The notes below the pieces were generated by a model. It had not been told where the DNA came from. It did not search any database and saw nothing but the letters and a program-made list of their open reading frames with translations. From Roseobacter ponti (GTDB lineage Bacteria > Pseudomonadota > Alphaproteobacteria > Rhodobacterales > Rhodobacteraceae), in contig NZ_CP048788.1 in assembly GCF_012932215.1 (NCBI RefSeq), positions 3,658,001 through 3,722,000 on the forward strand: a stretch of DNA of 64,000 bases. The letters are read 5' to 3'. The position numbers and the translations under genes were made by a program. Shown in pieces: positions 29,385-48,770 of this stretch (positions are counted from its first letter, which is position 1; each line of letters starts with the position of its first letter).

Positions 29385-30680
29385 TCATTCAAATACTTTA
29401 TGGCGCAGCTTCCACGCGCCTTCCTCATGCTTCCAGAGATGCGGAGAGCGGAAGCTGTCGCACAGATCAAAAAAGTAGTCCCGGTCCATGACGGGCGTGT
29501 CAAATTTCCCGGCAATCCCGGCGCCGAATTCTGATTCACGAATCGACATATATTCGAACAGTTCATTTTCGAAACGGTCCGGATATTCGCCATCAAACTT
29601 ACGAACAAGCGCCACCGCTTCGTCACGATCTATGTCGCCAGATCGGACCTCTTGTGCCGCATCATAGGTCGCGCGCCCAATTCCGAATTTGATGTAGGTG
29701 GTGTAGTAATGCAGGTCATCCATCTTATCATCGATCGAATTGTATTTGGAGTATGTTCCGAGGGTCCGCTCAGGTGCTGCTTCAAAACCGCCATGTTCAA
29801 CCGCGTAGTAATAGGCCGACTGGGGATGCCACTTCACGTAGTAACCAAGGTAGTGCACCTCAAGACCCTGGCGTTCCACGACCGCGGGATCAATCGGCAT
29901 ATAGGGTTCGAAATCGGTCTTTGTGAACCCAAAGTCTTTTTTCAGCTCCGCAAAGGAGGTTCCCCCAAGAAAAACGTCTTCGTCGCTGGAACTTGTGAAG
30001 TACTCGTACTCCGCAAACTCACGCTTTGCATTTTCATTCTCGGTCGAAGGATTGCCGTATTCCGCGCCGCTTTCGCCATAAAAAATCAGCTTGATGTCAT
30101 GCATGGCGGCAAGCTTTGCAGCCAGGTGACGCTGTCCGATGATGAACGGCTGGAACGGGTGCAGAAGCCGGTCGGTCGAAAGACGCGTCAGCAACCGATG
30201 CACCCGCCCGTTTGGGGTCACAAGAATATTGTCAAAACCGGAATGAATCCATTTCTGAAAATTGCGCCAGCCCCAGTCGGTGTAAATATGCGGCGCCCAG
30301 GTGATTGTTAGCGGGTTCATGCCATATTTGTATTTCAGCAAGTGCGATTGCATGAAACTGTCTTTGCCCCCGGAGCCTGGCACGAGACAGTCAAACGACC
30401 CGTCCTTTGACCTATGCATGTCGCAAAGCTCGATAAGCCTGCGCTCCCGCTCGTCCCAGTCAACCTTGTCTTTCCAGTCTTTGGTCAGGCAGGCGTCACA
30501 GATCCCGTCATGAAATGCGATCACCTTCTTTTTAGTTTCCCGCGTATGCTTTTGCTCAATTGTTGAATTGGGCCGCTGGTTCGAGATCACACAGGATTTG
30601 CAGAATTCCACTTCCTGCGGCAGTCCGAAATAAGCTTCGTTCGGGCTGTCTGTCTCATATTTTGCAAATCTGTTCGTCAT
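29385..30680 (-). CDS. PP-loop N-acetyl-sugar amidotransferase (WbpG/PseA family)
   Basis: A 431-residue ATP-PPase with the PP-loop VPGSGGKDSF and cysteine pairs that suggest a zinc knuckle (CKSCVISNQRP, then CDACL). WbpG and PseA convert an N-acetyl group on a sugar to an acetamidino group, with ammonia delivered by dedicated HisH and HisF homologues. Both partners are encoded on the opposite strand at 32078-33444. The stop of the glycosyltransferase-like gene upstream overlaps its start. This is the strongest evidence that the locus makes an amidino-modified sugar. Confidence 0.9.
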   Translation of the reverse strand: MTNRFAKYETDSPNEAYFGLPQEVEFCKSCVISNQRPNSTIEQKHTRETKKKVIAFHDGICDACLTKDWKDKVDWDERERRLIELCDMHRSKDGSFDCLVPGSGGKDSFMQSHLLKYKYGMNPLTITWAPHIYTDWGWRNFQKWIHSGFDNILVTPNGRVHRLLTRLSTDRLLHPFQPFIIGQRHLAAKLAAMHDIKLIFYGESGAEYGNPSTENENAKREFAEYEYFTSSSDEDVFLGGTSFAELKKDFGFTKTDFEPYMPIDPAVVERQGLEVHYLGYYVKWHPQSAYYYAVEHGGFEAAPERTLGTYSKYNSIDDKMDDLHYYTTYIKFGIGRATYDAAQEVRSGDIDRDEAVALVRKFDGEYPDRFENELFEYMSIRESEFGAGIAGKFDTPVMDRDYFFDLCDSFRSPHLWKHEEGAWKLRHKVFE

Positions 30681-31960
30681 ACGCCGGTTTCATCTTTCGC
30701 CAGTTTTTGCGTTGCACGATCGAGAATAAGCTCTGCGATTTTCTGCGACGCCGGGTTTTGCGGAAACGCCCGGACAAATCTATCTCGGCGACGTTCACGT
30801 GCTGCTGTATCTTTTAGACATTCTACCAGCACAGGTTCAAGCTTTGCCATATCCGGAACGCCGATGGCCAGCCCCATTTCCGCCAGTGGCATATCCGCAT
30901 GGCGCTGCGGTTCAGGCTGGATAACGGTCTGTCCCAGATAAACGGCTTCCAGTGCCACGGTCGTCGAGCGTGCGATGACAGCATCCACCCGCTCTGTCAG
31001 CTCATAAAGGTCCGGTTCTGCGGCCATCAGGACATTGGCATTATCCTGTGTGAAACGTTCGTATATTCCGCGCTGTTGCGAGGGATGCGGACGCACCAGT
31101 AACCAGACGCCGGCCGCCCGGCATGCCGCAGCACAAAGCGACATTTCCTCAACGATCTCTGAACTGGTTCTGGTATGGGTGGTGCCGCTCACGGCATCCA
31201 GCCAGGCTGGCATGTCGGCATAAAGCACAAGCGCTTCGCCCGCCACCTGAGGAAACGTCCGGGCAACCCACGCCGGATCGGAGACGACGGCGCGCGGTAT
31301 CAGGCGGTCAAACGCCGGGTTTCCGGTGATGTGAGCCTGCGTGATGCCGGGATCGAAAAACCCCTGCCGCCGGCAGCTGTCCACGGCGGCCTCAGTAAGA
31401 AACGTCGCATCGGACGCCTCAAGGGTGTATCCGTCGATTCCTGAAAAGAGATCAATCATCGCGATGCCGGGGATGCCGCGGGCACGCGCGACACGAAGCG
31501 CTGCGGCTTCGGCGCGGGGCGAGCTGGTGGTGACAATCACATCGGGTCTGACGCGCTCCACCACACGCTGCAGCACGCCGAGGGGCAGAAATGCCTGCCG
31601 TCCCCGTGCCGCAAGTGCAGCACCGGCGGCTTCCTCGCCGGTGCGCTGCACAAGATCCGCATAGGAAAGCCCGAGATAGGCAACTGATTCCTGGCGCGGA
31701 ATTCCGGTGTGATCAGAATGGTGGGCGTTTGCCAGTTCCTCACCATACTCCAGCGCCCGGTCGTCTGAGGGAAGTTCGATCAGGTCCCGGAAAGTCAGAA
31801 CCTCGGCGCCTGTATTGTTAAAGTGCGCTATCGCAGCCGGCATGGCCAGTACGGTGATCCCGATGCATCCGCGCAATGCCTCTATAACCGGGGTGACCAT
31901 CTGTGCATGGCCGCCACCATAAGTGACAAACAGTACCCGCCGCCCGGCAGTCTCAGGCAT
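30677..31960 (-). CDS. GT-B-fold glycosyltransferase or epimerase-like protein
   Basis: A 427-residue two-domain Rossmann protein. The opening VLFVTYGGGHAQMVTPVIEAL has the glycine-rich loop seen in MurG-like glycosyltransferases and UDP-GlcNAc 2-epimerases, and the second half has VRPHPSQQRG and the donor-site-like ARSTTVALEAVYLGQTVIQPEP. It most resembles surface-polysaccharide glycosyltransferases of the GT-B fold, possibly one that adds the nonulosonic acid. It is co-transcribed with the amidotransferase through a four-base overlap. Confidence 0.65.
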   Translation of the reverse strand: MPETAGRRVLFVTYGGGHAQMVTPVIEALRGCIGITVLAMPAAIAHFNNTGAEVLTFRDLIELPSDDRALEYGEELANAHHSDHTGIPRQESVAYLGLSYADLVQRTGEEAAGAALAARGRQAFLPLGVLQRVVERVRPDVIVTTSSPRAEAAALRVARARGIPGIAMIDLFSGIDGYTLEASDATFLTEAAVDSCRRQGFFDPGITQAHITGNPAFDRLIPRAVVSDPAWVARTFPQVAGEALVLYADMPAWLDAVSGTTHTRTSSEIVEEMSLCAAACRAAGVWLLVRPHPSQQRGIYERFTQDNANVLMAAEPDLYELTERVDAVIARSTTVALEAVYLGQTVIQPEPQRHADMPLAEMGLAIGVPDMAKLEPVLVECLKDTAARERRRDRFVRAFPQNPASQKIAELILDRATQKLAKDETGV

Positions 31961-32077
31961 TGCCTTTCCTCTCAGAATGTCTGATCAAATGACTGATCCC
32001 CCCTGCATCTTCAGAACAATGCTTTTAGCATCCGTTTCGGTGCTTTAGAACAGATGTGTCATACTGTGGAAGGCCCC
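31961..32077. promoter_or_regulatory. Divergent intergenic promoter region
   Basis: This AT-rich 117-base gap separates the leftward glycosyltransferase/amidotransferase pair from the rightward HisF-HisH-NeuC operon. It must hold promoters for both. I cannot pick out clear boxes or an operator. Confidence 0.4.
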
Positions 32078-32836
32078 ATGAAAAATCTCCGCTTCATAGC
32101 AAGGCTTGATGTCAAAGGCGAACATCTGGTGAAAGGAATCCAGCTTGAAGGTTTACGCAAGCTGGGCCGGCCGAATGACTATGCGCGCCGGTACTTCGCC
32201 GAAGGAATCGATGAAATCCTGTATATTGATATCGTCGCATCCCTTTATGAACGCAATTCACTGCTTCCGATCATTGAACGCGCGACCAACGACATATTTG
32301 TGCCGATCACCGTCGGCGGAGGCATCCGCTCGCTGGATGACGCACGCAATGCGCTTGAGGCCGGCGCAGACAAAGTGGCCATCAATACTGCGGCCCTGAG
32401 ACGCCCTGAGCTGATCAGCGAAATCGCTGAAGCTTTTGGCAGTCAATGCATGGTTCTGGGGATTGAAGCCAAGAGCAAGGGCCCGGGCCAGTGGGAATGC
32501 TATTTTGACAACGGTCGCGAAAAGTCAGGTCGCGACGTGCTAGACTGGGCAAGTGAAGGTGCCGAGCGGGGTGCAGGAGAAATCCTGCTGACGTCTGTTG
32601 ATCGCGAAGGTGGTCAGAAGGGGATGGATACAGATCTTATCCGCGCGATCTGCGATACCGTACCAGTGCCCGTGATCGCGTCCGGTGGGGTCGGCACGCA
32701 TGAACATGTGGCGGATGCGATCGGTGCAGGTGTTGACGCAATCGCCATGGCGCATGTGCTGCATTACGAAAAAATCGGCGTGGCCTCAATCAAGGAGCGC
32801 GCGATTTCCGAGACCGGCCTGGATATTCGCGCATGA
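32078..32836 (+). CDS. HisF-type ammonia-channel partner of the sugar amidotransferase
   Basis: A 252-residue (beta/alpha)8 protein of the HisF family. Visible features are ARLDVKGEHLVKG at the start, VPITVGGGIRSLDDA, the LLTSVDREGGQKGMD loop and PVIASGGVGTHEH. The context (adjacent HisH, nearby WbpG/PseA, no other his gene) shows it is the sugar-pathway paralogue, not the histidine-synthesis enzyme. It should pass ammonia from HisH to the PP-loop enzyme. Start at 32078 is chosen because the preceding in-frame codons (from 32054) do not look like HisF. Confidence 0.9.
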   Translation: MKNLRFIARLDVKGEHLVKGIQLEGLRKLGRPNDYARRYFAEGIDEILYIDIVASLYERNSLLPIIERATNDIFVPITVGGGIRSLDDARNALEAGADKVAINTAALRRPELISEIAEAFGSQCMVLGIEAKSKGPGQWECYFDNGREKSGRDVLDWASEGAERGAGEILLTSVDREGGQKGMDTDLIRAICDTVPVPVIASGGVGTHEHVADAIGAGVDAIAMAHVLHYEKIGVASIKERAISETGLDIRA

Positions 32837-33444
32837 CGAAAGTTTCTGTTCTCAACTATGGCATCGGCAACCTCAAAAGCGTCGTTCGCGCCCTTGAGCA
32901 TGTCGGGGCGGATCTGACCATAATCACCGATGCGGCGGAAGTTCGCGCCGCAGACCGTCTGGTTTTGCCAGGTGTCGGGGCGTTCAGCCACTGCACCGGA
33001 CGCCTCAGGGAGCTTGGTTTATGGGATGCGTTGTCGGACTATGTTGCTGGTGAACGTCCGTTTCTCGGGATCTGCGTTGGAATGCAGCTGATGATGCAGG
33101 CCAGTGAAGAATTCGGCCTGCATGAGGGGCTGGGCCTTGTTCAGGGACGCGTGGCGCGCCTGCCGGATGAGTTAGGACAGAAAATACCCATGGTGGGATG
33201 GAAAACGACAACGCCGTGTGCTCCCTCTGCGCTTCTGCCGCAAGGAGAGAATCCGTCTTTTTACTTTGTGCACTCCTTTGCGGCGACAGGCGTGCCTCCT
33301 GAGAGTGTTCTTGCAACGTATCGCTATGGCGCGTCAGATATAGTCGCGGCGGTCGGAACCGGAACAAAATTCGGAACACAGTTTCATCCCGAAAAAAGCG
33401 GCAGGGCTGGCCTGGCCCTGCTCGAACGATTTGTTGCGCTGTGA
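32833..33444 (+). CDS. HisH-type glutaminase partner of the sugar amidotransferase
   Basis: A 203-residue class I glutamine amidotransferase. The nucleophile is the Cys in FLGICVGMQLMM, the oxyanion loop follows at LPGVGAF, and the His-Glu pair is in TQFHPEKSG. It overlaps the HisF-like gene by four bases. As in WbpG-HisH2-HisF2 of Pseudomonas O-antigen loci, it should supply ammonia for acetamidino formation. Confidence 0.92.
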   Translation: MTKVSVLNYGIGNLKSVVRALEHVGADLTIITDAAEVRAADRLVLPGVGAFSHCTGRLRELGLWDALSDYVAGERPFLGICVGMQLMMQASEEFGLHEGLGLVQGRVARLPDELGQKIPMVGWKTTTPCAPSALLPQGENPSFYFVHSFAATGVPPESVLATYRYGASDIVAAVGTGTKFGTQFHPEKSGRAGLALLERFVAL

Positions 33445-38649: not shown

Positions 38650-39378
38650 ATGGCAAACGCCGGCATAGCGCATATTCACATTCACCCGCCGTTTGGCTAT
38701 GCACGCGCTCAGACGCCGGGAAAAAGAAAGACCGCTCTCGTGACGCAAGACACATTTACAACCCGCCCGTCCGACCTGCTCATGAGGCTGACCGATATTG
38801 TGATCAGCCTCGTTTTGCTGCCGTTTTTTCTGCCTGTTCTGTTGGTGGTTACGTTCTTAATCCTGCGCGAGGACGGCAAACCGGTGTTTTTCCGCCAGAC
38901 GCGGATCGGGCGGGGTTGCCAGCCGTTTGATATGCTGAAATTCCGGACCATGCGACATGACCCGGCGCGCGCCTCGGGCGCGGTTGCCGAAGGGGCTGAC
39001 CTGAAAAGCGCGCGGGCGCAGTTTCAGACCGCTTCAAAGTCAGACAACCGGATCACGGTTACCGGGCGCATTCTGCGCTCCACGCATCTTGATGAGCTGC
39101 CGCAGCTTCTGAATGTGCTTAAAGGCGATATGTCGCTGGTGGGCGTCCGGCCGGATGTGCCGGTGCAGCAGGCCGATTACACCCCTGAGGAGTGGGAAAT
39201 GCGTCACCGTCTGCGCCCGGGCATCACCGGCCTCGCGCAGACCGATCCGGGCGGCACAACAGCGCCGGGCAGCCGCACCCGTCTGGATCTTGAGTGGGTC
39301 CGGACCCGGTCATTCGGCCTTTACGTAAAGATCCTCTTGCGCACCTTCCGCAATGTGCAGGGCCGCAAAGGTATCTGA
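38650..39378 (+). CDS. Initiating sugar-phosphate transferase (polyprenyl-phosphate hexose-1-P transferase)
   Basis: A 242-residue membrane protein of the bacterial sugar transferase family (WbaP/PglC/WecA-unrelated type), which starts a repeat unit by moving a sugar phosphate to undecaprenyl phosphate. One hydrophobic helix (LTDIVISLVLLPFFLPVLLVV) is followed by FFRQTRIGRGCQPFDMLKFRTM, the LDELPQLLNVLKGDMSLVGVRP catalytic region and RLRPGITGLAQ. A GTG at 38740 would give a shorter protein starting nearer the helix and may be the true start. It is monocistronic, divergent from the GNAT-like gene. Confidence 0.9.
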   Translation: MANAGIAHIHIHPPFGYARAQTPGKRKTALVTQDTFTTRPSDLLMRLTDIVISLVLLPFFLPVLLVVTFLILREDGKPVFFRQTRIGRGCQPFDMLKFRTMRHDPARASGAVAEGADLKSARAQFQTASKSDNRITVTGRILRSTHLDELPQLLNVLKGDMSLVGVRPDVPVQQADYTPEEWEMRHRLRPGITGLAQTDPGGTTAPGSRTRLDLEWVRTRSFGLYVKILLRTFRNVQGRKGI

Positions 39379-39389
39379 GGCTTCAGGCC

Positions 39390-40208
39390 TCAGCCAAGAG
39401 CAGCAACGCGCGCCCGGAAGAGTTTTCTGTTTTCCTCAAGCTGCCCGGGATGCCCGACAAAATCGTGATAGATCCGGCGCAGCTTTGCGATCTCGGCCGG
39501 GAAATCCATCGTCCGCTGCAACGTCTCCGGATCAGGGGCGCGGCGATGAAAAGTGCGCGACAGGATTGCAGCCGTCGATCCGAGCCGGACATGCTCGCCC
39601 AGCACCAGTTCAGGAGGAACAGCACCCTCACCTGCCCGTGCGACACCACCCAGACCGAAGGGGATGCCGGCACCCCTCAGTGCAGCAGCTGCCTCTTCCA
39701 GAACGCCTTCGGCGAGGGGGGTAAACATCATCGGATCGCCGCGCTCAAGGTGCAGGTCGTTCAAACCGATGTGCAGATCCGTCAGGGGCACTTTTCCGAT
39801 CATCTCCGGGAGGGCGTCAACCGCGCCAACGGTCTCGAAAAGCGGCACCGCCTCTGCGCGACCGCCCAGAAGATCGAAGAACCGGCTGAGCGTGTCTGTG
39901 TCATGGAACATCGGGAGCATCACAGCATCAGCGCCCCGCGCCAGCACCTCGTCAATTTCATTGCCTGAGCCCTGGTGCAGCGGATTAATCCGCACCAGCA
40001 GATTTGCATCCGGCGCCGCCTCGCGCAGCGGGGTGATATCCGCGCTGCGCAGTACCGACTGCACCGTATCCAGATGACCCTGCCGGTCCGCTTTGCCCAT
40101 CACCTCAAGATCAACAAAGAGCCGGTCCACCCCGTGTGCTGCGACAAAGGCCGCAATCCCGGGATGCTCCACGATCATCAGGAACCTGAGCTCAGGTGTC
40201 GGCATCAT
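39390..40208 (-). CDS. HpcH/HpaI-family aldolase/lyase-like protein
   Basis: A 272-residue TIM-barrel protein with family features: FVDLEVMGK, the metal-site-like AVMLPMFHDTDT, VPLFETVGAVDALPEM and DLHIGLNDLHLERGD. Members cleave or form C-C bonds between pyruvate or related 2-oxo acids and aldehydes. Here it is the last gene of the long leftward operon with asnB and the glycine decarboxylase-like gene. It could act on pyruvate-derived units or degrade a nonulosonic acid; its reaction is not predictable. Confidence 0.8.
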   Translation of the reverse strand: MMPTPELRFLMIVEHPGIAAFVAAHGVDRLFVDLEVMGKADRQGHLDTVQSVLRSADITPLREAAPDANLLVRINPLHQGSGNEIDEVLARGADAVMLPMFHDTDTLSRFFDLLGGRAEAVPLFETVGAVDALPEMIGKVPLTDLHIGLNDLHLERGDPMMFTPLAEGVLEEAAAALRGAGIPFGLGGVARAGEGAVPPELVLGEHVRLGSTAAILSRTFHRRAPDPETLQRTMDFPAEIAKLRRIYHDFVGHPGQLEENRKLFRARVAALG

Positions 40209-40250: not shown

Positions 40251-42008
40251 TCAGCCCGCCGCAGACAGGTTCTGCATCCATCTTGCGGTCATCAGCAGGG
40301 TGCGCAGTTCCCGGGTGTGGTTGGCCTTTTCCGCAATGTGATCCGCCAGCATCTGCTGCGCGCCTGAGACATTGTAGCGGCCCGGATCGAGCGTTGCGAT
40401 CGTGTCTTCTGCCCAGCCTTTCAGCGGGCCCTTGATCCATTCGCCGATCGGCATTGTCGGCATGGATTTCTGGCGGAACATCAGGTCGCGCCCGTAGTGC
40501 CGCAGGCCGTAGTCCTTGAGGAAATACTTGCTGACCCCGTCGCGAATTTTGTCCTGCAGCGGCATCCGTGCAAAGGCCTCGGAGATGCGGTGATCCATGA
40601 AGGGCGAGCGCCCCTCAATCGATTGCCCGGCGCCCATGCGGTCGGTCTTGATCAGGTTGTTACCCGGCGAGAGTGAGGTACATTCATAGGCTGCGATCTG
40701 ATTGACCGGTTCCAGATGGCGCCAGGGGGCGAGGATTTCCTCAAAGACATCGATGGGTGTGGCCATGGTGGCCTGAAAATCAGGAGTAAGCACCCGTTGG
40801 CGCGACGCTTCCGGCATGAAACAGATGCGCGAGAAGTAGTCTGTAAGCGGAAAGTTCGTGCGGGTCCGGGAGGCAAAAAACGCCTGATTGTGCGAAAAGC
40901 CCGAGAGCACCTCGTCAGGACCGTCGCCGTTGAAGGCAACGATGACACCGGCATTATGGGCCGCCTGACAGAGCTTGCGGATCAGGAAAAACGAAAAATC
41001 ACCATGCGGCTGGTCGGCGTGGTGCAGTACCGCATCAATGTTTTCCGGCACGATCGAATTGTCATAGGTCAGTGGCTCCAGATCGATCATGTCGAACTGG
41101 CTGGCGACCTGGCGCGCCAGGTGAAATTCGCCGTACCCTTCTTCGCGGCAATCCAGACCGAATGCGAGCATGCGCGGCTCGTTCCAGCGCCGGTGCAGGT
41201 GGGATGCAATGACCGAACTGTCGACACCGCCGGAGAGAAAAAGGCAGCCCTTCACGTCAAAACGCATCTGAAGGCGGATCGCATCGTCGAGAAGCTCGCC
41301 GAAAGCATCATGGCTCATCGTCTCATTTTCGGTGCTGAGCGGCCAGGACCACCATGAATGCGCCGTGCGCGACCCGTCCGGGCGCAGCTCCAGCCATGTG
41401 CCTGGCGCCAGATGGGTGATGCCCTTGTAGCAGGTGCGCGGCGGCGGGCAGTAATTGAAGCTGTGCATCAGGTTCAGGCCGACGTCATCAATGACCGGCT
41501 CGACACCGGGCAGCGACAGGATCGATTTGATCTCCGAGGCAAAGGCAAAGCCCCCCTCCGGCAGATCCATCAGATAGCAGGGTTTGATCCCCTGGCGGTC
41601 CCGCGCCAGCATGCCGCGGTTCTCTTTGGTGTCCCAGAGGCAGAAGGCGAACATCCCGATCAGGTCTTCCAGCATCGCCGGGCCCTTTTCACGCCACAGA
41701 TGCACCAGCACTTCGGTGTCGCAGCGGGATTTGAACTTATACCCTTTTGACTTCAGGTCCTCGCGCAGTTCGATGAAATTATAGATCTCGCCGTTGAAGA
41801 CCACCCAGACGGTATCGTCTGTGTTCGACATCGGCTGGCCACCGTTTTCGGGGTCAACAACCGCCAGACGCGCATGTCCCAGCAGCGCCGGACCGATCTC
41901 CACCACGTCCTGCTCATCAGGACCGCGGTAGGATATGCATTCAATCATCCGGGCGACGTCATCCGCGGTGTACCGCGGGCTCCCGATCACACCTGCTATT
42001 CCGCACAT
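40251..42008 (-). CDS. asnB: Asparagine synthase (glutamine-hydrolysing) family
   Basis: A 585-residue two-domain enzyme. Cys2 begins the N-terminal glutaminase (MCGIAGVIG), with YRGPDEQ, ARLAVVDPENGGQPM and VFNGEIYNF lining the glutamine site. The synthetase domain carries the PP-loop in FLSGGVDSSVIASHL. Homologues in glycan loci amidate carboxyl groups, such as those of uronic or nonulosonic acids, more often than they make free asparagine. Its place between the aldolase and the P-protein gene suggests the former. Gaps are 42 and 21 bases. Confidence 0.88.
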   Translation of the reverse strand: MCGIAGVIGSPRYTADDVARMIECISYRGPDEQDVVEIGPALLGHARLAVVDPENGGQPMSNTDDTVWVVFNGEIYNFIELREDLKSKGYKFKSRCDTEVLVHLWREKGPAMLEDLIGMFAFCLWDTKENRGMLARDRQGIKPCYLMDLPEGGFAFASEIKSILSLPGVEPVIDDVGLNLMHSFNYCPPPRTCYKGITHLAPGTWLELRPDGSRTAHSWWSWPLSTENETMSHDAFGELLDDAIRLQMRFDVKGCLFLSGGVDSSVIASHLHRRWNEPRMLAFGLDCREEGYGEFHLARQVASQFDMIDLEPLTYDNSIVPENIDAVLHHADQPHGDFSFFLIRKLCQAAHNAGVIVAFNGDGPDEVLSGFSHNQAFFASRTRTNFPLTDYFSRICFMPEASRQRVLTPDFQATMATPIDVFEEILAPWRHLEPVNQIAAYECTSLSPGNNLIKTDRMGAGQSIEGRSPFMDHRISEAFARMPLQDKIRDGVSKYFLKDYGLRHYGRDLMFRQKSMPTMPIGEWIKGPLKGWAEDTIATLDPGRYNVSGAQQMLADHIAEKANHTRELRTLLMTARWMQNLSAAG

Positions 42009-42029: not shown

Positions 42030-44708
42030 TCAGACCACCAGCCGGGCAACCGGGCTGGTGTGGGGGGCATTTCCGGCAACTGATGCGTCTTCGCGGGCCT
42101 CTTTGAGGATATCCGTGATGATCCGCACAAGCCGGTCAAGATCCGCCTTGCTTTCCGTTTCCGTCGGCTCAAACAGCATCGCCTGAGCCATGTCCTCGCC
42201 ATAATAGACACAGCCGGCGCCAACAAGGGTCGGCGGGTGCACGTCAAAATCGATCATGCGTTTCGCCAGATCAAGAGTGGACACCGGCAGCCTGCTGCCG
42301 TCCAGAAGCGCCTCGTGCATGCAGGGTCGGTCAAAGACCGGCGGGATGACCGGTTCCAGCGCCCGCATGAGGTAATTGGCATTGAGCACCGCATCTGCCG
42401 AGGCCTGTTTCAGCCCGTCCGCACCCAGCGAGCGGATATAGGCCCAGGCCCGCAGCAGCACTGAGACATGCCCGTACCACAGCTTGATCCGCAGAGGATC
42501 CGGCGCCAGCGGGTCGCTGAGGCCAGGTGTCAGATATTTCGCCAGAAAAGCGCGCACGCTGATCGGACCTGCACCCGGGCCACCGCCCCCGTGCGGTGTC
42601 GAGAATGTTTTATGCAGATTGATGTGAGCGATATCAAAGCCCATGCGCCCGGGCGATGTGTGCCCCATCAGCGCGTTCATATTGGCCCCGTCGTAGTAAA
42701 GCAGCGCGCCGGCCTCATGCACGGCCGCTGCCAGATCGCCGATTTCTTCCTCAAAAAGGCCAAAGGTCGAGGGATTGGTGGTCATCACGACGGCGGTACG
42801 CTCCGAGAGTACTTCACGGAAAGCCTGTGCATCCATCAGCCCGTCGGCGCGGGTCGGCACGATCCGGCAGGTAAATCCGACCATCGAGGCGCTGGCGGGG
42901 TTGGTGCCATGGGCGCTGTCAGGAATAATCACTTCGGTCCGCAAGGTTTCTCCGCGGTCTTCGAAGTACCGCCGGGCAATTGTAAGACCTTTGAGTTCGC
43001 CATGCGCCCCCGCCGCAGGCGTCAGATCCACCGCGTCAAGACCTGTCAGAGCAGCGATCGCAGTTTTCAGTTCATCGTAAATCCGGCACAGACCAGACAG
43101 GGTTTCCGGTGGCTGCAGGGGGTGCAGCGCCTGAAATCCGGGCTGTTCGGTCAACAGGTCATTGCGCTTTGGATTATATTTCATCGTGCAGGAGCCAAGA
43201 GGGTAAGACCCTGTATCCACGCCGAAATTATTCCTGCTGTACATCGTATAGCGCCGAACGAGCCCCACTTCCGGCACCGGCTCAAGATCGGGGTGGCTGT
43301 AAAAGCCATCGTCGGTTGCCGGCACTTTGACGGGCTCAGCCAGTGCTTTATGCGCGATATTCAGGGCGTCACATACGGCCGCGACATAGGCCCGGACCGT
43401 CTCGGCGCCCGTGGTTTCGGTTGTCGCAATAAGAAGCTGCGATGGCGTCAGCCGGGGGTGTCTCTCCATCGGAACACCTGCGAAAATGCCGGCTGCGCCG
43501 AGACCGTCCACGACTTTATTCCGACGCTCAAGGGTTCCGAAATCGGCAACAAATTCGTTAAAGACTGCGCCACTCAGGGGCAGCGAAACGCCCGGCAGTG
43601 CTGCAAGAGCTGAGCGCAGTGTCTGTGCCGCCCGGGCAGCGCGCGCGGCGAACCCCGCGATCCCCTGACTGCCGTAGAGCGCCATATAGGCGCCTGCCCG
43701 CAACGCATTAAGCGCCTGATTCGAACAGATGTTAGAGGTTGCCCGGTCTCGCGCCACATGCTGTTCGCGGTCTTCGTAAACGAGGGCCAGCGCCGGCCGC
43801 CCGAAGATGTCACTGACGCGGCCGATCAGTCTTCCGGGAGTGTAACGGCGCAGTTCATCGCGACAGGCGAGGATACCAAGATGAGCGCCACCGGCGAACA
43901 TATGCAGCCCCAGCGGCTGGCCTTCAAAGACCAGAATATCGAACAGGTCCGCAGGCCTCGGGCCGTCCCGGAACACCAGATGCGGATGCATCGCGCCGAT
44001 CATCAAAGCGCCGGTATCCCGCGCGATCGCGCTCAGTTTCTCTGCGCGCTCCAGCACGCCGAAAGCATTGGGACTCTGCAGAACGATGGCAGCAACATCA
44101 TCTCCGGGCGCATCATCACGGGTTTCGCCGGTCACCGGGTCCGCATCAAGCGGCACGATCTGCACCGACCTGCCGCGGCAATAGGTATCCAGAACCTCGC
44201 GGTACTGCGGCAGCAGGTTCGGGGACACTGCAATTTTCTGCCTCCCGGTTTTCTGAACGGCCATCCAGGTCGCTTCGGCCAGCGCTGTCGCACCGTCGTA
44301 ATGAGAGGAGGTCACGACCGGCAGCCCTGTGACGGCGCTGATCTTTGTTGTAAAATCATTGAGGGCGGAGAGCAGGCCCTGGCTCATTTCCGGCTGGTAA
44401 GGGGTGTAGGCCGTCAGAAACTCACCGCGCGCCGCGATGGCGTCAATGACCGCCGGAACATGGTGTGCGTAAACGCCGGCCCCCAGAAAACAGGCGTATT
44501 CGAGGCAATCAGTGTTTTCCTGCGCCCGGGCGCGCATCTCGCGGGTCAGCTCCCATTCGCTCAGGGCCGGCGGCATATCGGGTAACTCGCTGAGCCGGAA
44601 CTCCGTTGGGATCTGGCGAAAGAGAGCATCGCCATCGGGGAGCCCCAGCGCTTCAAGCATCACCTGCCGGTCAGCGTCGCTTACCCCCTGCAAGGCCTGA
44701 TCCCACAT
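42030..44708 (-). CDS. Glycine decarboxylase P-protein, GcvPA-GcvPB fusion
   Basis: An 892-residue PLP enzyme. The N-terminal half is of the GcvPA type (FLGAGVYAHHVPAVIDAI, EFLTAYTPYQPEMSQG, SHYDGATALAEA), and the second half is of the GcvPB type (NFGVDTGSYPLGSCTMKYNPK, then HINLHKTFSTPHGGGGPG with the PLP lysine). Normally the P-protein decarboxylates glycine and hands the aminomethyl group to lipoyl-H protein. No gcvH, gcvT or lpd is near. The fused two-subunit type differs from the usual single-chain GcvP. ATG 44708 is chosen; an extension to 44792 looks non-coding. Within a glycan operon it may serve a specialised C1 or amine-forming step. Confidence 0.88.
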   Translation of the reverse strand: MWDQALQGVSDADRQVMLEALGLPDGDALFRQIPTEFRLSELPDMPPALSEWELTREMRARAQENTDCLEYACFLGAGVYAHHVPAVIDAIAARGEFLTAYTPYQPEMSQGLLSALNDFTTKISAVTGLPVVTSSHYDGATALAEATWMAVQKTGRQKIAVSPNLLPQYREVLDTYCRGRSVQIVPLDADPVTGETRDDAPGDDVAAIVLQSPNAFGVLERAEKLSAIARDTGALMIGAMHPHLVFRDGPRPADLFDILVFEGQPLGLHMFAGGAHLGILACRDELRRYTPGRLIGRVSDIFGRPALALVYEDREQHVARDRATSNICSNQALNALRAGAYMALYGSQGIAGFAARAARAAQTLRSALAALPGVSLPLSGAVFNEFVADFGTLERRNKVVDGLGAAGIFAGVPMERHPRLTPSQLLIATTETTGAETVRAYVAAVCDALNIAHKALAEPVKVPATDDGFYSHPDLEPVPEVGLVRRYTMYSRNNFGVDTGSYPLGSCTMKYNPKRNDLLTEQPGFQALHPLQPPETLSGLCRIYDELKTAIAALTGLDAVDLTPAAGAHGELKGLTIARRYFEDRGETLRTEVIIPDSAHGTNPASASMVGFTCRIVPTRADGLMDAQAFREVLSERTAVVMTTNPSTFGLFEEEIGDLAAAVHEAGALLYYDGANMNALMGHTSPGRMGFDIAHINLHKTFSTPHGGGGPGAGPISVRAFLAKYLTPGLSDPLAPDPLRIKLWYGHVSVLLRAWAYIRSLGADGLKQASADAVLNANYLMRALEPVIPPVFDRPCMHEALLDGSRLPVSTLDLAKRMIDFDVHPPTLVGAGCVYYGEDMAQAMLFEPTETESKADLDRLVRIITDILKEAREDASVAGNAPHTSPVARLVV

Positions 44709-44748
44709 CAGTGACACCCTTTTTGCGCCATGCGGGCCGCCCAGGCCA

Positions 44749-45243
44749 TCATGATGAAAAACCCTGTCCGTAAAGCGACAGAACGCTGCCAATCAGGGGG
44801 CGGAAGGTATCCTGCAACAGCGCTGTGCGGTCGGTTCCCTGCGGCAGCCGGTCCAGAACCTGGCCGATCTCTGATGCCGAAAACGGACCGGGCAATCCGG
44901 CATCCGCACGTCCGGTAATCAGCGTGACATTATCACTTCCGGCCAGTTCTTTCAGCGCAGGCAGGTGATCAGTGCCCGGCGCGCCGGCCGCCCTGACAGT
45001 CTGGTGCAGGGCGCCGAAACGTACGCTGGCACTCAGAGCATCCGTGTCGCTGGCCAGGGCATAGCTGTGTACCGGGTCGGTCTGATAGAGGCTCAGAAAC
45101 CCGAGAACCACGATATCTTCCGGGCGGCCGGCGAGGGCGACACCCATGCGCGGCGCGGTGATCGCCTGGCGCGTCAGATCGTCAAGCAGACAGATCAGCT
45201 GCGCCTGAACAGCGGAGGGCATCACAGGGCCAACCGCGTTCAT
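44749..45243 (-). CDS. Unrecognised 164-residue protein
   Basis: A soluble, mostly helical protein between the P-protein and aminotransferase genes, overlapping the latter's stop codon as ATGA, so it is certainly in the operon. It has no signal peptide or membrane helix. The middle (about 40-70) is LAGRPEDIVVLGFLSLYQTDP and a second strand-like piece NVTLITGRADAG follows at about 105-117. No known fold is evident to me. ATG 45243 is preferred to 45333 because of the overlap. Confidence 0.6.
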   Translation of the reverse strand: MNAVGPVMPSAVQAQLICLLDDLTRQAITAPRMGVALAGRPEDIVVLGFLSLYQTDPVHSYALASDTDALSASVRFGALHQTVRAAGAPGTDHLPALKELAGSDNVTLITGRADAGLPGPFSASEIGQVLDRLPQGTDRTALLQDTFRPLIGSVLSLYGQGFSS

Positions 45244-46724
45244 GCGGCGATCCTGTGGGTCAGTACGTCGCGCACGGAGGCAATGACACCGTCCTGCTGA
45301 CGCGCAGTCATGGCCGAGCCGGAAGGCAGGCAAAGAGTACGCAGAAAGAGCCCCGGGCCCACGGCAAGCGTCTCACTGTGGGGCTCAAACTCCGCACCGC
45401 GCAGAAGCGGCTGCATCTGCATCGGTTTCCAGGCGGGTCTGGTCTCAATGCCGCTGGTCCGGAGCGACCGCATCAGCTGATAGGCGTGCACGCCGGTTTC
45501 GTCAGGATCGAGAGAAATGACTGTCAGCCAACGGTTTCCAAGGGTCCCGGGCAATTCGGACTGAAAGGAAACGCCCGGAATATCTCCCAGCCCGCTCACA
45601 TACCTGTCGTGAATTTCGCGGCGGGCGGTCACGCGATCGCGCAGCACTTCCAGCTGGCCGCGACCAATGCCGGCCAGCACATTGGACATCCGGTAATTAT
45701 AGGCGATTTCGGAATGCTGATAGTGCTCTGCCGGATCGCGACCCTGCGTGGCCAGCTTTTGCGCACGGCGGATCAGATCGGGACGGTCCGACACCAGCGC
45801 TCCGCCCCCGGATGTCGTGATGATTTTATTGCCGTTAAACGAGTAAACACTGAGCAGCCCGTGCGCGCCCGAGGCCAGGTTTCCGCAGGAGGCACCAAGG
45901 CTTTCTGCGGCATCTTCGATGACCGGCACATCGTATTGCGTTGCGAGCGCCATGATCGCGGCCATGTCCGCGGGCTGGCCGTAAAGGTGCACAACGACAA
46001 TAGCTTTGGGCAACTGCCCGGCTTTTGCGTCACGCGCGAGGGCCCGCGCAAGGGCCTCCGGTGACATGTTCCAGCTGACCGGTTCCGCGTCGATCAGCAT
46101 CGGTGTGGCACGTTCATAAAGCACCGGCTGAACCGTCGCTACAAATGTCAGATCGGATACGTAGACGCGATCACCCGACCCGATATCGAGGACGCGGAGC
46201 GCCAGATGCAGGCCGGCTGTCCCGGAGGATACCGCAAGCGCGTGGGCGCGTCCGGATACCCGGCACAGCGCTGCTTCAAACTCCACAAGATTAGAGCCCG
46301 CCGGGGCCACAAAGTTCTCATCAAAAGCCAGTTTGACATAGGCAGCTTCGGCATCACCCATATGCGGCGGCGACAAAAACAGCGTCCGGGTCAGGCTGGT
46401 GCGGTCGGCAAGACCGGTCGGGCGACCGTCCTCATCGGTCAGAACGATCACATCGATACCTTTGTTGTCCAGCTCCATGATCAGGTCGGCCTTGCCCGTC
46501 CCCTGCAACATGGTGACCGGCGATGTGCCCTGCAGGTCTGAGATCGGGTCAGTCATGGCAAGCCCGGCAATCAGCCCGCGCCGGATATCTCCGTCGGTGA
46601 CAGTTCTGAGAACGCGACCGTTGTCGTCCACCACAATGCAGAGCTTTACACCGGCTTTCTCAAGCGCCGAGACCGCAGCCCGCAGATCATCACTCTGACG
46701 CAGGAGATTACTTTCAGGACGCAT
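45240..46724 (-). CDS. CBS-domain / DegT-DnrJ-EryC1 sugar aminotransferase fusion
   Basis: A 494-residue fusion. Residues 1-120 hold two CBS repeats (KLCIVVDDNGRVLRTVTDGDIRRGL and IDVIVLTDEDGRPTGL), the kind that precedes the nucleotidyltransferase PtmE in Campylobacter legionaminate loci. The rest is a PLP-dependent sugar aminotransferase of the DegT family (SSGTAGLHLALRVL, VVVHLYGQPADM, IEDAAESLGA, and SFNGNKIITTSGGGAL with the PLP lysine). The enzyme probably aminates the 4-keto sugar made by the membrane dehydratase (the LegC/PglE step); the CBS pair may sense a nucleotide. Confidence 0.88.
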   Translation of the reverse strand: MRPESNLLRQSDDLRAAVSALEKAGVKLCIVVDDNGRVLRTVTDGDIRRGLIAGLAMTDPISDLQGTSPVTMLQGTGKADLIMELDNKGIDVIVLTDEDGRPTGLADRTSLTRTLFLSPPHMGDAEAAYVKLAFDENFVAPAGSNLVEFEAALCRVSGRAHALAVSSGTAGLHLALRVLDIGSGDRVYVSDLTFVATVQPVLYERATPMLIDAEPVSWNMSPEALARALARDAKAGQLPKAIVVVHLYGQPADMAAIMALATQYDVPVIEDAAESLGASCGNLASGAHGLLSVYSFNGNKIITTSGGGALVSDRPDLIRRAQKLATQGRDPAEHYQHSEIAYNYRMSNVLAGIGRGQLEVLRDRVTARREIHDRYVSGLGDIPGVSFQSELPGTLGNRWLTVISLDPDETGVHAYQLMRSLRTSGIETRPAWKPMQMQPLLRGAEFEPHSETLAVGPGLFLRTLCLPSGSAMTARQQDGVIASVRDVLTHRIAA

Positions 46725-46779: not shown

Positions 46780-47556
46780 TCATCCAGTCCACTTATTCCA
46801 GAATGCCCGCGATATCGCACGGGACTGCCGGCGCACTTCGGCCGACTTTTCCTGCCATGCCGGCGTTTTGCCGCGTTTGTTTTTCGCACCGGATGAAACA
46901 GACGCCAGATGGATATCGCTTTCGACACCGAGGATCGTGAAAGGGGCCTGGTCATACCCCAGCCCTTTCCCGCTGTCCGACATCAGCCGACGGAACATGT
47001 GATCGACGGGCGCGACGGGTTGCGAAGCCTCCTTGAGGAACCTCTGAGCTCCGGCGCGCGACCACAGCAGCGCAGTGGCGATCACCGGGAAATAATAGGC
47101 GCGGCGCAGCACACGTCCGGAGGGCAGTGTGGCAATATCGCGAATGACCAGCCGCGGGGGCCGCACAAGATTGACGCATTCCCAGCCGGGCAGATCGCCG
47201 CGGAGAAGGAAATCAGCCGTTTCTGCAACAGTGTCCCAGGCGTTTTCGAGCGCGCGGAAGTCATCTTCGAAAATGAGACCGGCCGGGGCACCACTGTCCA
47301 CGAGCGCACGCGCAGCCGCGACATGGGACAGATAGCAGCCGATCTCACCGCTGTTCATGCCGGATCCGAAAAACCGCCGGGCATGCGCGTCGTTATACTC
47401 TGCAAACTCTCCGGGACTGCGCCCGCGACCATCCACTGCCTCGATGCGCTCGAACGTCAGGCCGGCCTGCGCAAACTGACCGGTCGCCGAGGCAAGCCGC
47501 GCATCGCTGCCCTGCAAGTTGATCACATACCCCGGGATTTCGCTGAGACTGGTCAC
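46780..47556 (-). CDS. Family 25 glycosyltransferase
   Basis: A 258-residue LPS-type glycosyltransferase. The GT25 features are the start GYVINLQGSDARL, ERIEAVDGR, GEIGCYLSHVAAARALVDS and the LIFEDDFRAL metal-binding acid pair. Members usually add galactose to lipooligosaccharide cores. It overlaps the ligase/polymerase gene by four bases and is 55 bases from the CBS-aminotransferase gene. Acceptor and donor unknown. Confidence 0.88.
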   Translation of the reverse strand: MTSLSEIPGYVINLQGSDARLASATGQFAQAGLTFERIEAVDGRGRSPGEFAEYNDAHARRFFGSGMNSGEIGCYLSHVAAARALVDSGAPAGLIFEDDFRALENAWDTVAETADFLLRGDLPGWECVNLVRPPRLVIRDIATLPSGRVLRRAYYFPVIATALLWSRAGAQRFLKEASQPVAPVDHMFRRLMSDSGKGLGYDQAPFTILGVESDIHLASVSSGAKNKRGKTPAWQEKSAEVRRQSRAISRAFWNKWTG

Positions 47557-48770
47557 GAGGTTTCCCCATGGCGAAGAGCTTCAAGGAAGACAAGGGACCA
47601 CAAGAGGGTCAGCGTGGTTGTAAAAGCGGAAATATCAACGAAATAGACGTTGTTCACCGCCGCCGTGCCCAGCAGACCCAGGGATGCCAGCAGCCCGACC
47701 TGTCTGCGCTGGTGCGCGCGCGTGGCCGTGAGGGCGCCGTTGTTCCGCCATCCCGCAATGGCAGGCGACAGCAACAGCAGCGTCATCAGGAGGGCAGCCG
47801 GCAACCCGCCGGCAACCGCATGTGTCAGAAATTCGTTGTGCAGATGTGACAGTTCGATCGGGAGTTGTTCTTTACCCTCAAATGCCGCTGAGAACCGGTT
47901 CTGGGGGCCATAGCCGAAAAGAGGTGCGGCACCTGCTGCGTCAACGCCCTCTCGCAGCATGGTCCGGCGCAATCCGACCGACCATTCGGGCACTTCCTGA
48001 GAACCGGAGATACCGTCGACGAGAGCGGTGTATCGTGCCGACTGTGAGGGCAGTGCATACATCGCCACCACCGCCAGTGCCAGGGCCGCGGCAATGGCGC
48101 CCGCTGCCGGCATCCGCACGCGGACACCCGGCCCTTCGAGAAGTGCACCGGCAACCCGTAGGACGCCGAGGACAATAATACCCAGAAACAGGCTTCTTGT
48201 CTGAACCAGAGCCCCAAGGCTCCAGACCATAAAAGCGAAGCCTGTAAGTCCTGCGATGAACCACCGCGTATCAGGTGCAAAGCGGTCAAAGGTCAGCAAA
48301 AGAGCCGGTAACAGCAGCAGAACCGCCAGATTGAACGGGTTCCCAAGCGCGAGTTCCGCCTCTGCGATGCCTGTCGCGCGCACTTCGACCCACATGACCG
48401 CGAACAGCGTGAAAACCAGCAAGACAAGACCCCGGTAAAGCAACCTGACGTCGATCCTGACAGGACGACGGATGAAGAGGTATGCCATGACCGGCAGAGC
48501 CATAACCGGCAGCGTGTCGAGCACCGGTTCCGCCGCACCCTCCCCTGCAGCAACCGATCGCAGGCAGATGTACGCTCCATAGACGATGCTCAGAAGCATA
48601 AAAGCACGCAGCGCGCCGATGCGATCGCCGGTTTTATCCCGGGTAAGTGGCAGCAGAAAAACAGAAAGAAATGCAAGCGCCTTGCCGACAAGCGGTATGC
48701 CCAGCCAGATCAGCGACAGCATCGCGGTGCCGGTCAGAAAACCCGGCTTTCTCGGACGTGTCATCGGCAT
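47553..48770 (-). CDS. O-antigen ligase/polymerase-like membrane protein
   Basis: A 405-residue inner-membrane protein with about ten to twelve hydrophobic segments and the large periplasmic loop typical of WaaL/Wzy_C proteins. The loop contains an arginine- and glycine-rich piece (GLRRTMLREGVDAAGAAPLFGYGP) and the near-invariant HLHNEFLTHAVAGG. It joins polysaccharide to lipid A core or polymerises repeat units; sequence does not tell which. It heads the seven-gene leftward operon that ends at 39390. Confidence 0.85.
   Translation of the reverse strand: MPMTRPRKPGFLTGTAMLSLIWLGIPLVGKALAFLSVFLLPLTRDKTGDRIGALRAFMLLSIVYGAYICLRSVAAGEGAAEPVLDTLPVMALPVMAYLFIRRPVRIDVRLLYRGLVLLVFTLFAVMWVEVRATGIAEAELALGNPFNLAVLLLLPALLLTFDRFAPDTRWFIAGLTGFAFMVWSLGALVQTRSLFLGIIVLGVLRVAGALLEGPGVRVRMPAAGAIAAALALAVVAMYALPSQSARYTALVDGISGSQEVPEWSVGLRRTMLREGVDAAGAAPLFGYGPQNRFSAAFEGKEQLPIELSHLHNEFLTHAVAGGLPAALLMTLLLLSPAIAGWRNNGALTATRAHQRRQVGLLASLGLLGTAAVNNVYFVDISAFTTTLTLLWSLVFLEALRHGETS

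Follow-up and report, generated by a model that had tools for sequence, protein, structure and literature searches.

A surface-glycan locus of Roseobacter ponti contains a gene for a fused glycine decarboxylase-like protein (P-protein) of 892 amino acids (aa), which is considered here as a probable source of methylamine for the glycan. The analysed stretch of DNA, in the following called the window, comprises 64,000 nucleotides (contig NZ_CP048788.1, positions 3,658,001 to 3,722,000 of the forward strand), and the gene lies on its minus strand at 42030..44708. The longest frame (42030..44792, minus strand) begins with a TTG and would give 920 aa; taken from the ATG at 44708, the frame has 892 aa and no stop, and the plus-strand reading of the same interval contains four stops. 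The N-terminal half (residues 10-448; 43365..44681, minus strand) passes the GcvPA model of NCBIfam (PRK00451, 504.3 bits, cut-off 364) and the C-terminal half (residues 473-890; 42039..43292, minus strand) that of GcvPB (PRK04366, 574.3 bits, cut-off 441). In addition, Pfam recognises the GDC-P and GcvP2 C-terminal domains, six of the six solved relatives in the Protein Data Bank (PDB) are glycine decarboxylases, and the lysine binding pyridoxal phosphate (PLP) is retained as Lys700 in the motif HKTFST (codon 42609..42611, minus strand). A preliminary description of the window had proposed exactly this, two subunit-like halves in a single chain with the PLP lysine kept. The model for the long-chain GcvP (TIGR00461, cut-off 859.2 bits) is not reached by the 892-aa protein (495.1 bits). 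The long GcvP of the same genome scores 1408.4 bits there and passes both subunit models as well (PRK00451 434.6, PRK04366 483.6 bits), so it is the failed TIGR00461 together with the position in the trees that places the 892-aa protein with the two-subunit kind.

Genome contigs were scanned with the 892-aa protein and the best 80 loci were kept. At E<=1e-150 its own genome is the only one matched among 390 genomes of the order, and at E<=1e-145 matches were found, own genome included, in 2 of 385 genomes of the class and 3 of 398 of the phylum; these limits would miss GcvPA (PA) and GcvPB (PB) lying in different frames and are valid for fused or same-frame copies only. The next matches in class and phylum (G475, G833 and G795) show 43-44% identity and an internal stop each. 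Among the 80 loci a contig of an uncultured beta proteobacterium stood out (CAIQOO010000083.1, L043; PA 46%, PB 54% identity), in which homologues of an aldolase and a sugar transferase precede PA and PB and an AsnB-like amidotransferase follows, 54% identical to the AsnB of the window. A search with the window AsnB against 115 genomes of the family of L043 gave five matches at E<=1e-100. In four of these genomes, that of L043 and three more, AsnB (53-56% identity) adjoins PB; around the fifth match (38%) no P-protein motif occurs in 20 kb, and among 117 genomes of the window's own phylum there is no match beyond the own genome. The P-proteins of the window and of these four genomes are called special below.

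By tblastn and reading of open reading frames (ORFs), the order ALD-WcaJ-GcvPA-GcvPB-AsnB-GmaS (ALD, the aldolase; WcaJ, the sugar transferase; GmaS, glutamate-methylamine ligase) was found in all three long beta loci (L043, L127 and L128/L129). The fourth, L126, is a 6.5-kb contig with PB, AsnB, GmaS and a glycosyltransferase-like gene. A NeuB homologue in L127 and homologues of NeuB, NeuC and a CBS-DegT sugar aminotransferase in L128 mark these as nonulosonate-type glycan loci, as in the window. Thus the special task in a glycan locus suggested by the preliminary description is backed by a gene set found in four further genomes. GcvPA and GcvPB are two genes in the beta members and fused in the window. 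The fusion is rare, since PA and PB share one stop-free frame in one of the 80 scan loci (L018), with the PB half alone seen in L066 and L077. The fusion of L018 (10001-12667, candidate division FCPU426) has gcvH and gcvT matches in its locus and is apparently independent of that in the window. Among plasmid records 144 match the 892-aa protein, the two-subunit places among the 25 listed having 38-44% identity. Two further observations concern the beta loci. At L128 12687-15140 (genome G1412) a gene for a methyltransferase is accompanied by one with weak similarity to arginine deiminase, under the Pfam cut-off. The FkbH-domain and AMP-binding ligase genes near the cassette of L127 (544-3951) suggest an unusual acyl substituent on that glycan.

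In the genome of the window (G000, 3.96 Mb, 99.94% complete) two P-proteins were matched, the 892-aa protein and a long GcvP of 949 aa with 36% identity to it. The gene of this long GcvP belongs to a gcvT-gcvH-gcvP operon elsewhere in the genome (L003 5659-10092; names by NCBIfam). Hence the housekeeping copy with gcvT and gcvH that had been presumed does exist, the case of a sole gcvP does not apply, and the trees put the 892-aa protein outside the long GcvP group. The search for a housekeeping gcvP covered the window genome and that of L043 (G1107); G1107 possesses, besides the special two-subunit pair, a long gcvP match with one TGA. In agreement with the earlier claim that no H or T gene is nearby, the search for both found no gcvH-like match in the window at E<=1 and none in the special loci. 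The single gcvT-like match in the window (E 0.008, 78 aa) runs antisense inside the asnB stretch and is taken as noise. By comparison, gcvT or gcvH is present at E<=1e-8 in 71 of the 79 other scan loci.

For the alignments L043, being special, was kept separate from the other scan loci, and L036, L037, L038, L039, L044, L046, L066 and L077 were excluded as partial or broken, which leaves 71 other two-subunit P-proteins; five of these (L007, L013, L022, L028 and L040) have no gcvT or gcvH in the stretch examined. A branch with an SH-aLRT support of 100 and a stem of 0.77 separates the window protein and the three complete beta pairs from the rest. In a PB-only tree with 14 ordinary PBs from the order of L043 added, the five special PBs stand together, apart from these 14, with a support of 99, label shuffles coming out as low in 0 of 500. 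Both trees are quick ones with the window row on a long branch, and the PB-only tree contains a fragment on a very long branch (row ph_L084). The clade has a specific insertion, LVGAGC, after the motif HPPT (residues 828-833; 42210..42227, minus strand, codons checked), which occurs in five of five special PBs and in none of the 71 others. It is likewise absent in G475, G833 and G795, and its signature pattern gave 0 matches in viral contigs. Furthermore, 68 of 300 genomes from the order of L043 match the P-protein, and of the 15 loci taken from them none of the 14 besides L043 carries the insertion. Altogether 30 positions, insertion included, are common to the four complete members and occur in no more than 2 of the 71 others. 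Of 154 columns conserved to at least 97% in the 71 others, 136 are kept in the window protein and 148 in each of the three complete beta members.

One of the clade-specific changes touches the predicted contact with the H-protein. According to a docking study, Arg373 and Lys376 of human GLDC form salt bridges to the H-protein (PMC7259800). With human numbering transferred through the alignment to 6i33 (Lys711 of the chain is Lys754), the place of Arg373 is taken by Ala319 in the window protein (43752..43754, minus strand, codon checked). All four special PAs have Ala here, whereas the 71 others have a basic residue (66 Arg, 5 Lys). The usual Gln-Ala/Thr-REQHI-Arg/Lys of PA has become Glu-Asp-REQHV-Ala. 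This change in four of four suggests that the H-protein docks poorly or not at all on the special PA.

The AsnB next to the fused gene (40251..42008, minus strand, 585 aa; TIGR01536, 347.7 bits) begins with MCGI, keeps the nucleophile Cys2 and has the PF00733 and GATase_7 domains of a class II amidotransferase. It is of its own type. The AsnBs of the GcvP loci, window (alpha) against the four beta cassettes, are 52-55% identical, and share 32-35% (the window AsnB 33-35%) with the AsnBs of L087, L114 and L124, stretches in which no GcvP was seen; L087 and L114 are 63% identical to each other. The top PDB match of the window AsnB is the hydroxyamidotransferase 7ylz (167.4 bits, compared to 113.1 for E. 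coli AsnB), an enzyme of the TsnB9/SaHAT kind. Hydroxyamidotransferases are described as using ATP to transfer a substituted amine to a free acid, with a glutamyl hydroxamate as the donor (PMC13418202).

An AsnB of the other type seems to have preceded the special one in the window. The plasmids L087 (NZ_CP049039.1) and L088 (NZ_CP106737.1) have the order CBS-aminotransferase, AsnB, aldolase and NeuB with no annotated GcvP, and the window has CBS-aminotransferase, a 164-aa ORF (44749..45243, minus strand), GcvPAB, AsnB and aldolase. This ORF aligns to residues 240-316 of the L087 AsnB (39% over 77 positions, 48.9 bits; best of 200 shuffles 26.9), and where the latter has the PP-loop SGGLDSSS the ORF reads AGRPEDIV. 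A tblastn search of the plasmids with the ORF gave nothing at E<=0.01. The ORF is probably what erosion has left of an AsnB of the other type, the PP-loop having been lost, and the GcvPAB-AsnB pair seems to have come in beside the older AsnB and replaced it. L087 and L088 belong to different Rhodobacterales genera and have in common a near-identical stretch of ~40 kb that includes a glycan locus, with mostly the same protein accessions; as judged from this identity, the surface-glycan locus was exchanged recently.

The last gene of the beta cassettes resembles glutamine synthetase and is, by sequence, GmaS. The protein of L126 matches the glutamate-methylamine ligase 9qur with 502.8 bits and the GmaS 7cql with 341.0 bits, the best glutamine synthetase reaching 240.9. 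Among themselves the four cassette proteins have 77-81% identity, and methylamine would be their substrate. Known residues tell GmaS and glutamine synthetase apart (PMC7948447). The catalytic Asp177 and Glu186 and the pocket residues Gln175, Glu179 and Asn188 are kept in all four, and the L126 protein, the one aligned to 7cql for these positions, carries Trp300 and Ala48 at the positions that Glu and Asp occupy in glutamine synthetase. The NCBIfam name 'type III glutamate-ammonia ligase', given to the L126 protein and to the GmaS of the window genome alike, hides this identity. The latter GmaS (631.6 bits to 7cql) lies about 1.07 Mb away from the window locus. It ends a gene run with class II amidotransferase, GXGXG and glutamate-synthase domains, a make-up like that of mgsABC-gmaS. 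The genes gmaS and mgsC are named in PMC5023228.

The genes from asnB to the Wzy_C gene are all on the minus strand and are separated by 21-55 bases or overlap by 4. Upstream of the fused gene and the remnant there are a CBS-DegT (LegC-like) sugar aminotransferase (45240..46724; TIGR04181, 333.7 bits, under the cut-off of 420; 62% identity to L087), a GT25 glycosyltransferase (46780..47556; Pfam) and a Wzy_C or O-antigen ligase-like membrane protein (47553..48770). This arrangement confirms the operon with CBS-aminotransferase and glycosyltransferase that the preliminary description had set out; its unknown gene between gcvP and the aminotransferase is now read as the AsnB remnant. On the other side of asnB lie the HpcH/HpaI (CitE)-like aldolase homologue (39390..40208, minus strand, 272 aa; Pfam PF03328, 21.6 bits, under the cut-off of 25, and tblastn) and, on the plus strand, the WcaJ-like initiating sugar transferase (38650..39378; PF02397, 188.9 bits), a homologue of which adjoins the cassette in each of the three long beta loci. 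No NCBIfam model matched the aldolase homologue, yet its conserved motifs are kept. It occurs in 7 of 292 genomes of the order, own included, in varying gene settings. In the other six no GcvP match was found in the 20 kb taken, so the aldolase module has a wider occurrence than the added GcvP. The window also encodes two methyltransferases in the locus, NeuC, NeuB, a cytidylyltransferase and the WbuX-HisH-HisF set. The members of this last set (WbuX, HisF-like and HisH-like, an N-acetyl sugar amidotransferase set) adjoin NeuC at 29385-33444, and the nonulosonate of the locus may bear an acetamidino group too.

Probably, the re-purposed fused GcvPA-GcvPB acts as a stand-alone source of methylamine for the surface glycan. 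The P-protein would bind glycine on its PLP and release CO2; the carbanion would then be protonated and methylamine would leave, with no transfer of an aminomethyl group to the H-protein. P-protein on its own releases methylamine, though slowly. GmaS, which the beta cassettes encode themselves and the window genome encodes in trans, would join methylamine to glutamate. The special AsnB would take the resulting gamma-glutamylmethylamide instead of glutamine as donor and place the methylamine onto a carboxylate, activated by ATP, of a sugar or of its precursor, which would give an N-methylcarboxamide. We see about even chances for the wider proposal that methylamine is made on purpose, that gamma-glutamylmethylamide is its safe carrier and AsnB builds an N-methylamide glycan, and that ammonia-amidated and methylamidated states of one glycan machinery are switched by the AsnB swap together with the decarboxylase. 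A special task had been expected from the beginning, and this part of the expectation stands. The delivery of an aminomethyl or C1 unit through the H-protein has become less likely, as the partners GmaS and a distinct AsnB point to methylamine and one of the two predicted H-protein contacts is lost.

Several points weigh against the methylamine proposal. It is built on five genomes in all, four of them from one family. None of the six GmaS matches of the window genome lies inside the window locus, so the glutamate-loading step there rests on the gene about 1.07 Mb distant. The cell continues to produce H-protein, which might be employed in trans, and the place of Lys376 has remained basic (Arg322 in the window, Arg in L127 and Lys in both L043 and L129). 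Moreover, the interface between P- and H-protein is that of a docking model (PMC7259800). In the PA and PB tree label shuffles came out equally low in 60 of 500 with only six rows labelled, which makes it a weak control. The window protein deviates at 18 of the 154 conserved columns, compared to 6 in the beta ones, and could be drifting. An AlphaFold model from an 8-row alignment reached a pLDDT of 58.7 and a pTM of 0.44, too poor to place the LVGAGC insertion relative to the active site. The special AsnB type was defined against three other AsnBs (L087, L114 and L124, with no L047 row), its donor would, by analogy, be gamma-glutamylmethylamide, and the 164-aa remnant matches the L087 AsnB but has no significant match to those of L114, L124 or the special type.

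Four other explanations have to be weighed against the production of methylamine. As the preliminary description had also suggested, the altered P-protein might decarboxylate another amino acid, a small one such as alanine or serine, with GmaS and AsnB handling ethylamine or ethanolamine, which we consider unlikely. The insertion of six residues and the 24 further clade-only residues would leave room for another substrate, and GmaS-type ligases accept ethylamine too. A precedent from a capsule locus exists in Campylobacter jejuni, where serine phosphate is decarboxylated for an amide substituent (Cj1436/Cj1438; PMC12409886). However, the three complete beta members keep 148 of the 154 conserved columns, and the cassette ligase matches methylamine enzymes best. 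It is rather improbable that a second, ordinary P-protein works with H- and T-protein in trans and raises the supply of C1 units or of CO2 and NH3, for example for the methyltransferases of the locus. The loss of the Arg373 equivalent in four of four special PAs argues against it, as does the company of GmaS and AsnB instead of C1 genes in loci with no gcvH and one noise-level gcvT match, even though gcvT and gcvH are present in the genome, two methyltransferase genes lie in the locus and the Lys376 contact is still basic.

Likewise, AsnB could make a plain carboxamide from glutamine while GcvP and GmaS serve separate purposes, for instance the use of glycine or methylamine nitrogen, in an operon without a single pathway. 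Its Cys2 and its passing of the ordinary asparagine synthase model TIGR01536 would fit. But the AsnBs of the GcvP loci form their own type, the other type is seemingly eroded beside it in the window, PA, PB and AsnB are adjacent in alpha and beta genomes and GmaS belongs to all four beta loci, which makes such a patchwork very unlikely. Finally, the window copy would be a decaying, inactive hitchhiker if its branch, the longest of the clade (1.58), its 18 changed columns, its fusion and the AsnB remnant next door were signs of erosion. This is hardly credible for an open frame of 892 aa that retains the PLP lysine as well as 136 of the 154 conserved columns and whose base composition (42030-44708) is similar to that of the neighbouring genes.

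If the fused P-protein does supply methylamine, the consequences reach beyond this locus. Glycine decarboxylase is treated as the partner of the lipoyl-H-protein, and a clade which seemingly drops the H-protein would amount to a pathway dedicated to turning glycine into methylamine and would illustrate the way in which a central enzyme gets recruited to secondary metabolism. The gene gmaS serves as a marker of methylamine-using bacteria (PMC7948447), a use that GmaS in a biosynthetic cassette would make ambiguous. The proposal predicts an N-methylamide on a bacterial surface glycan, detectable by mass spectrometry, and the AsnB involved may accept donors of substituted amines. Among the matches listed in the open-licence literature there was neither a GcvP in a glycan locus nor an N-methylamide made in this way.

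Compared to the GcvPA/GcvPB system (1wyt), the window protein is alike in that both halves pass the family models and the PLP lysine and 136 of 154 columns are kept. It differs in the fusion, the insertion of six residues and the loss of one predicted H-protein contact, and its gene stands beside AsnB in a glycan locus with no gcvT or gcvH alongside. With the long-chain GcvP (TIGR00461) it shares the PA and PB domains in a single chain, but it fails that model, has 36% identity to the long copy of its own genome and stands apart from it in the tree. In the known borrowing of the glycine cleavage aminomethyl group for hydrogenase maturation the H-protein is the mediator (PMC11736057). The plasmid loci of the Roseobacter group (NZ_CP049039.1/NZ_CP106737.1) have CBS-aminotransferase, AsnB, aldolase, NeuB, sugar transferase and MurJ in common with the window; no GcvP is among the annotated genes of their 40.8 kb, and their AsnB is of the other type (34%).

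Three systems resemble the proposed chemistry. The N-methylglutamate pathway (GmaS, MgsABC) likewise makes gamma-glutamylmethylamide through GmaS, and the class II glutamine amidotransferase domain of the MgsA-like gene resembles the N-domain of AsnB. However, methylamine is a nutrient there, whereas here it would come from glycine and be built into a product. The hydroxyamidotransferase 7ylz is AsnB-related, and its substrates are a free acid and a gamma-glutamyl compound that donates a substituted amine (PMC13418202), but its donor carries hydroxylamine, its acceptor is a polyketide acid or benzoic acid, and it is remote from the window AsnB (167.4 bits). In the capsule amide pathway of C. 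jejuni (Cj1436, Cj1437, Cj1438) a decarboxylase of the capsule locus is described as providing an amine for linkage to a uronic acid (PMC12409886), with another ligase and with ethanolamine or serinol phosphate in place of methylamine.

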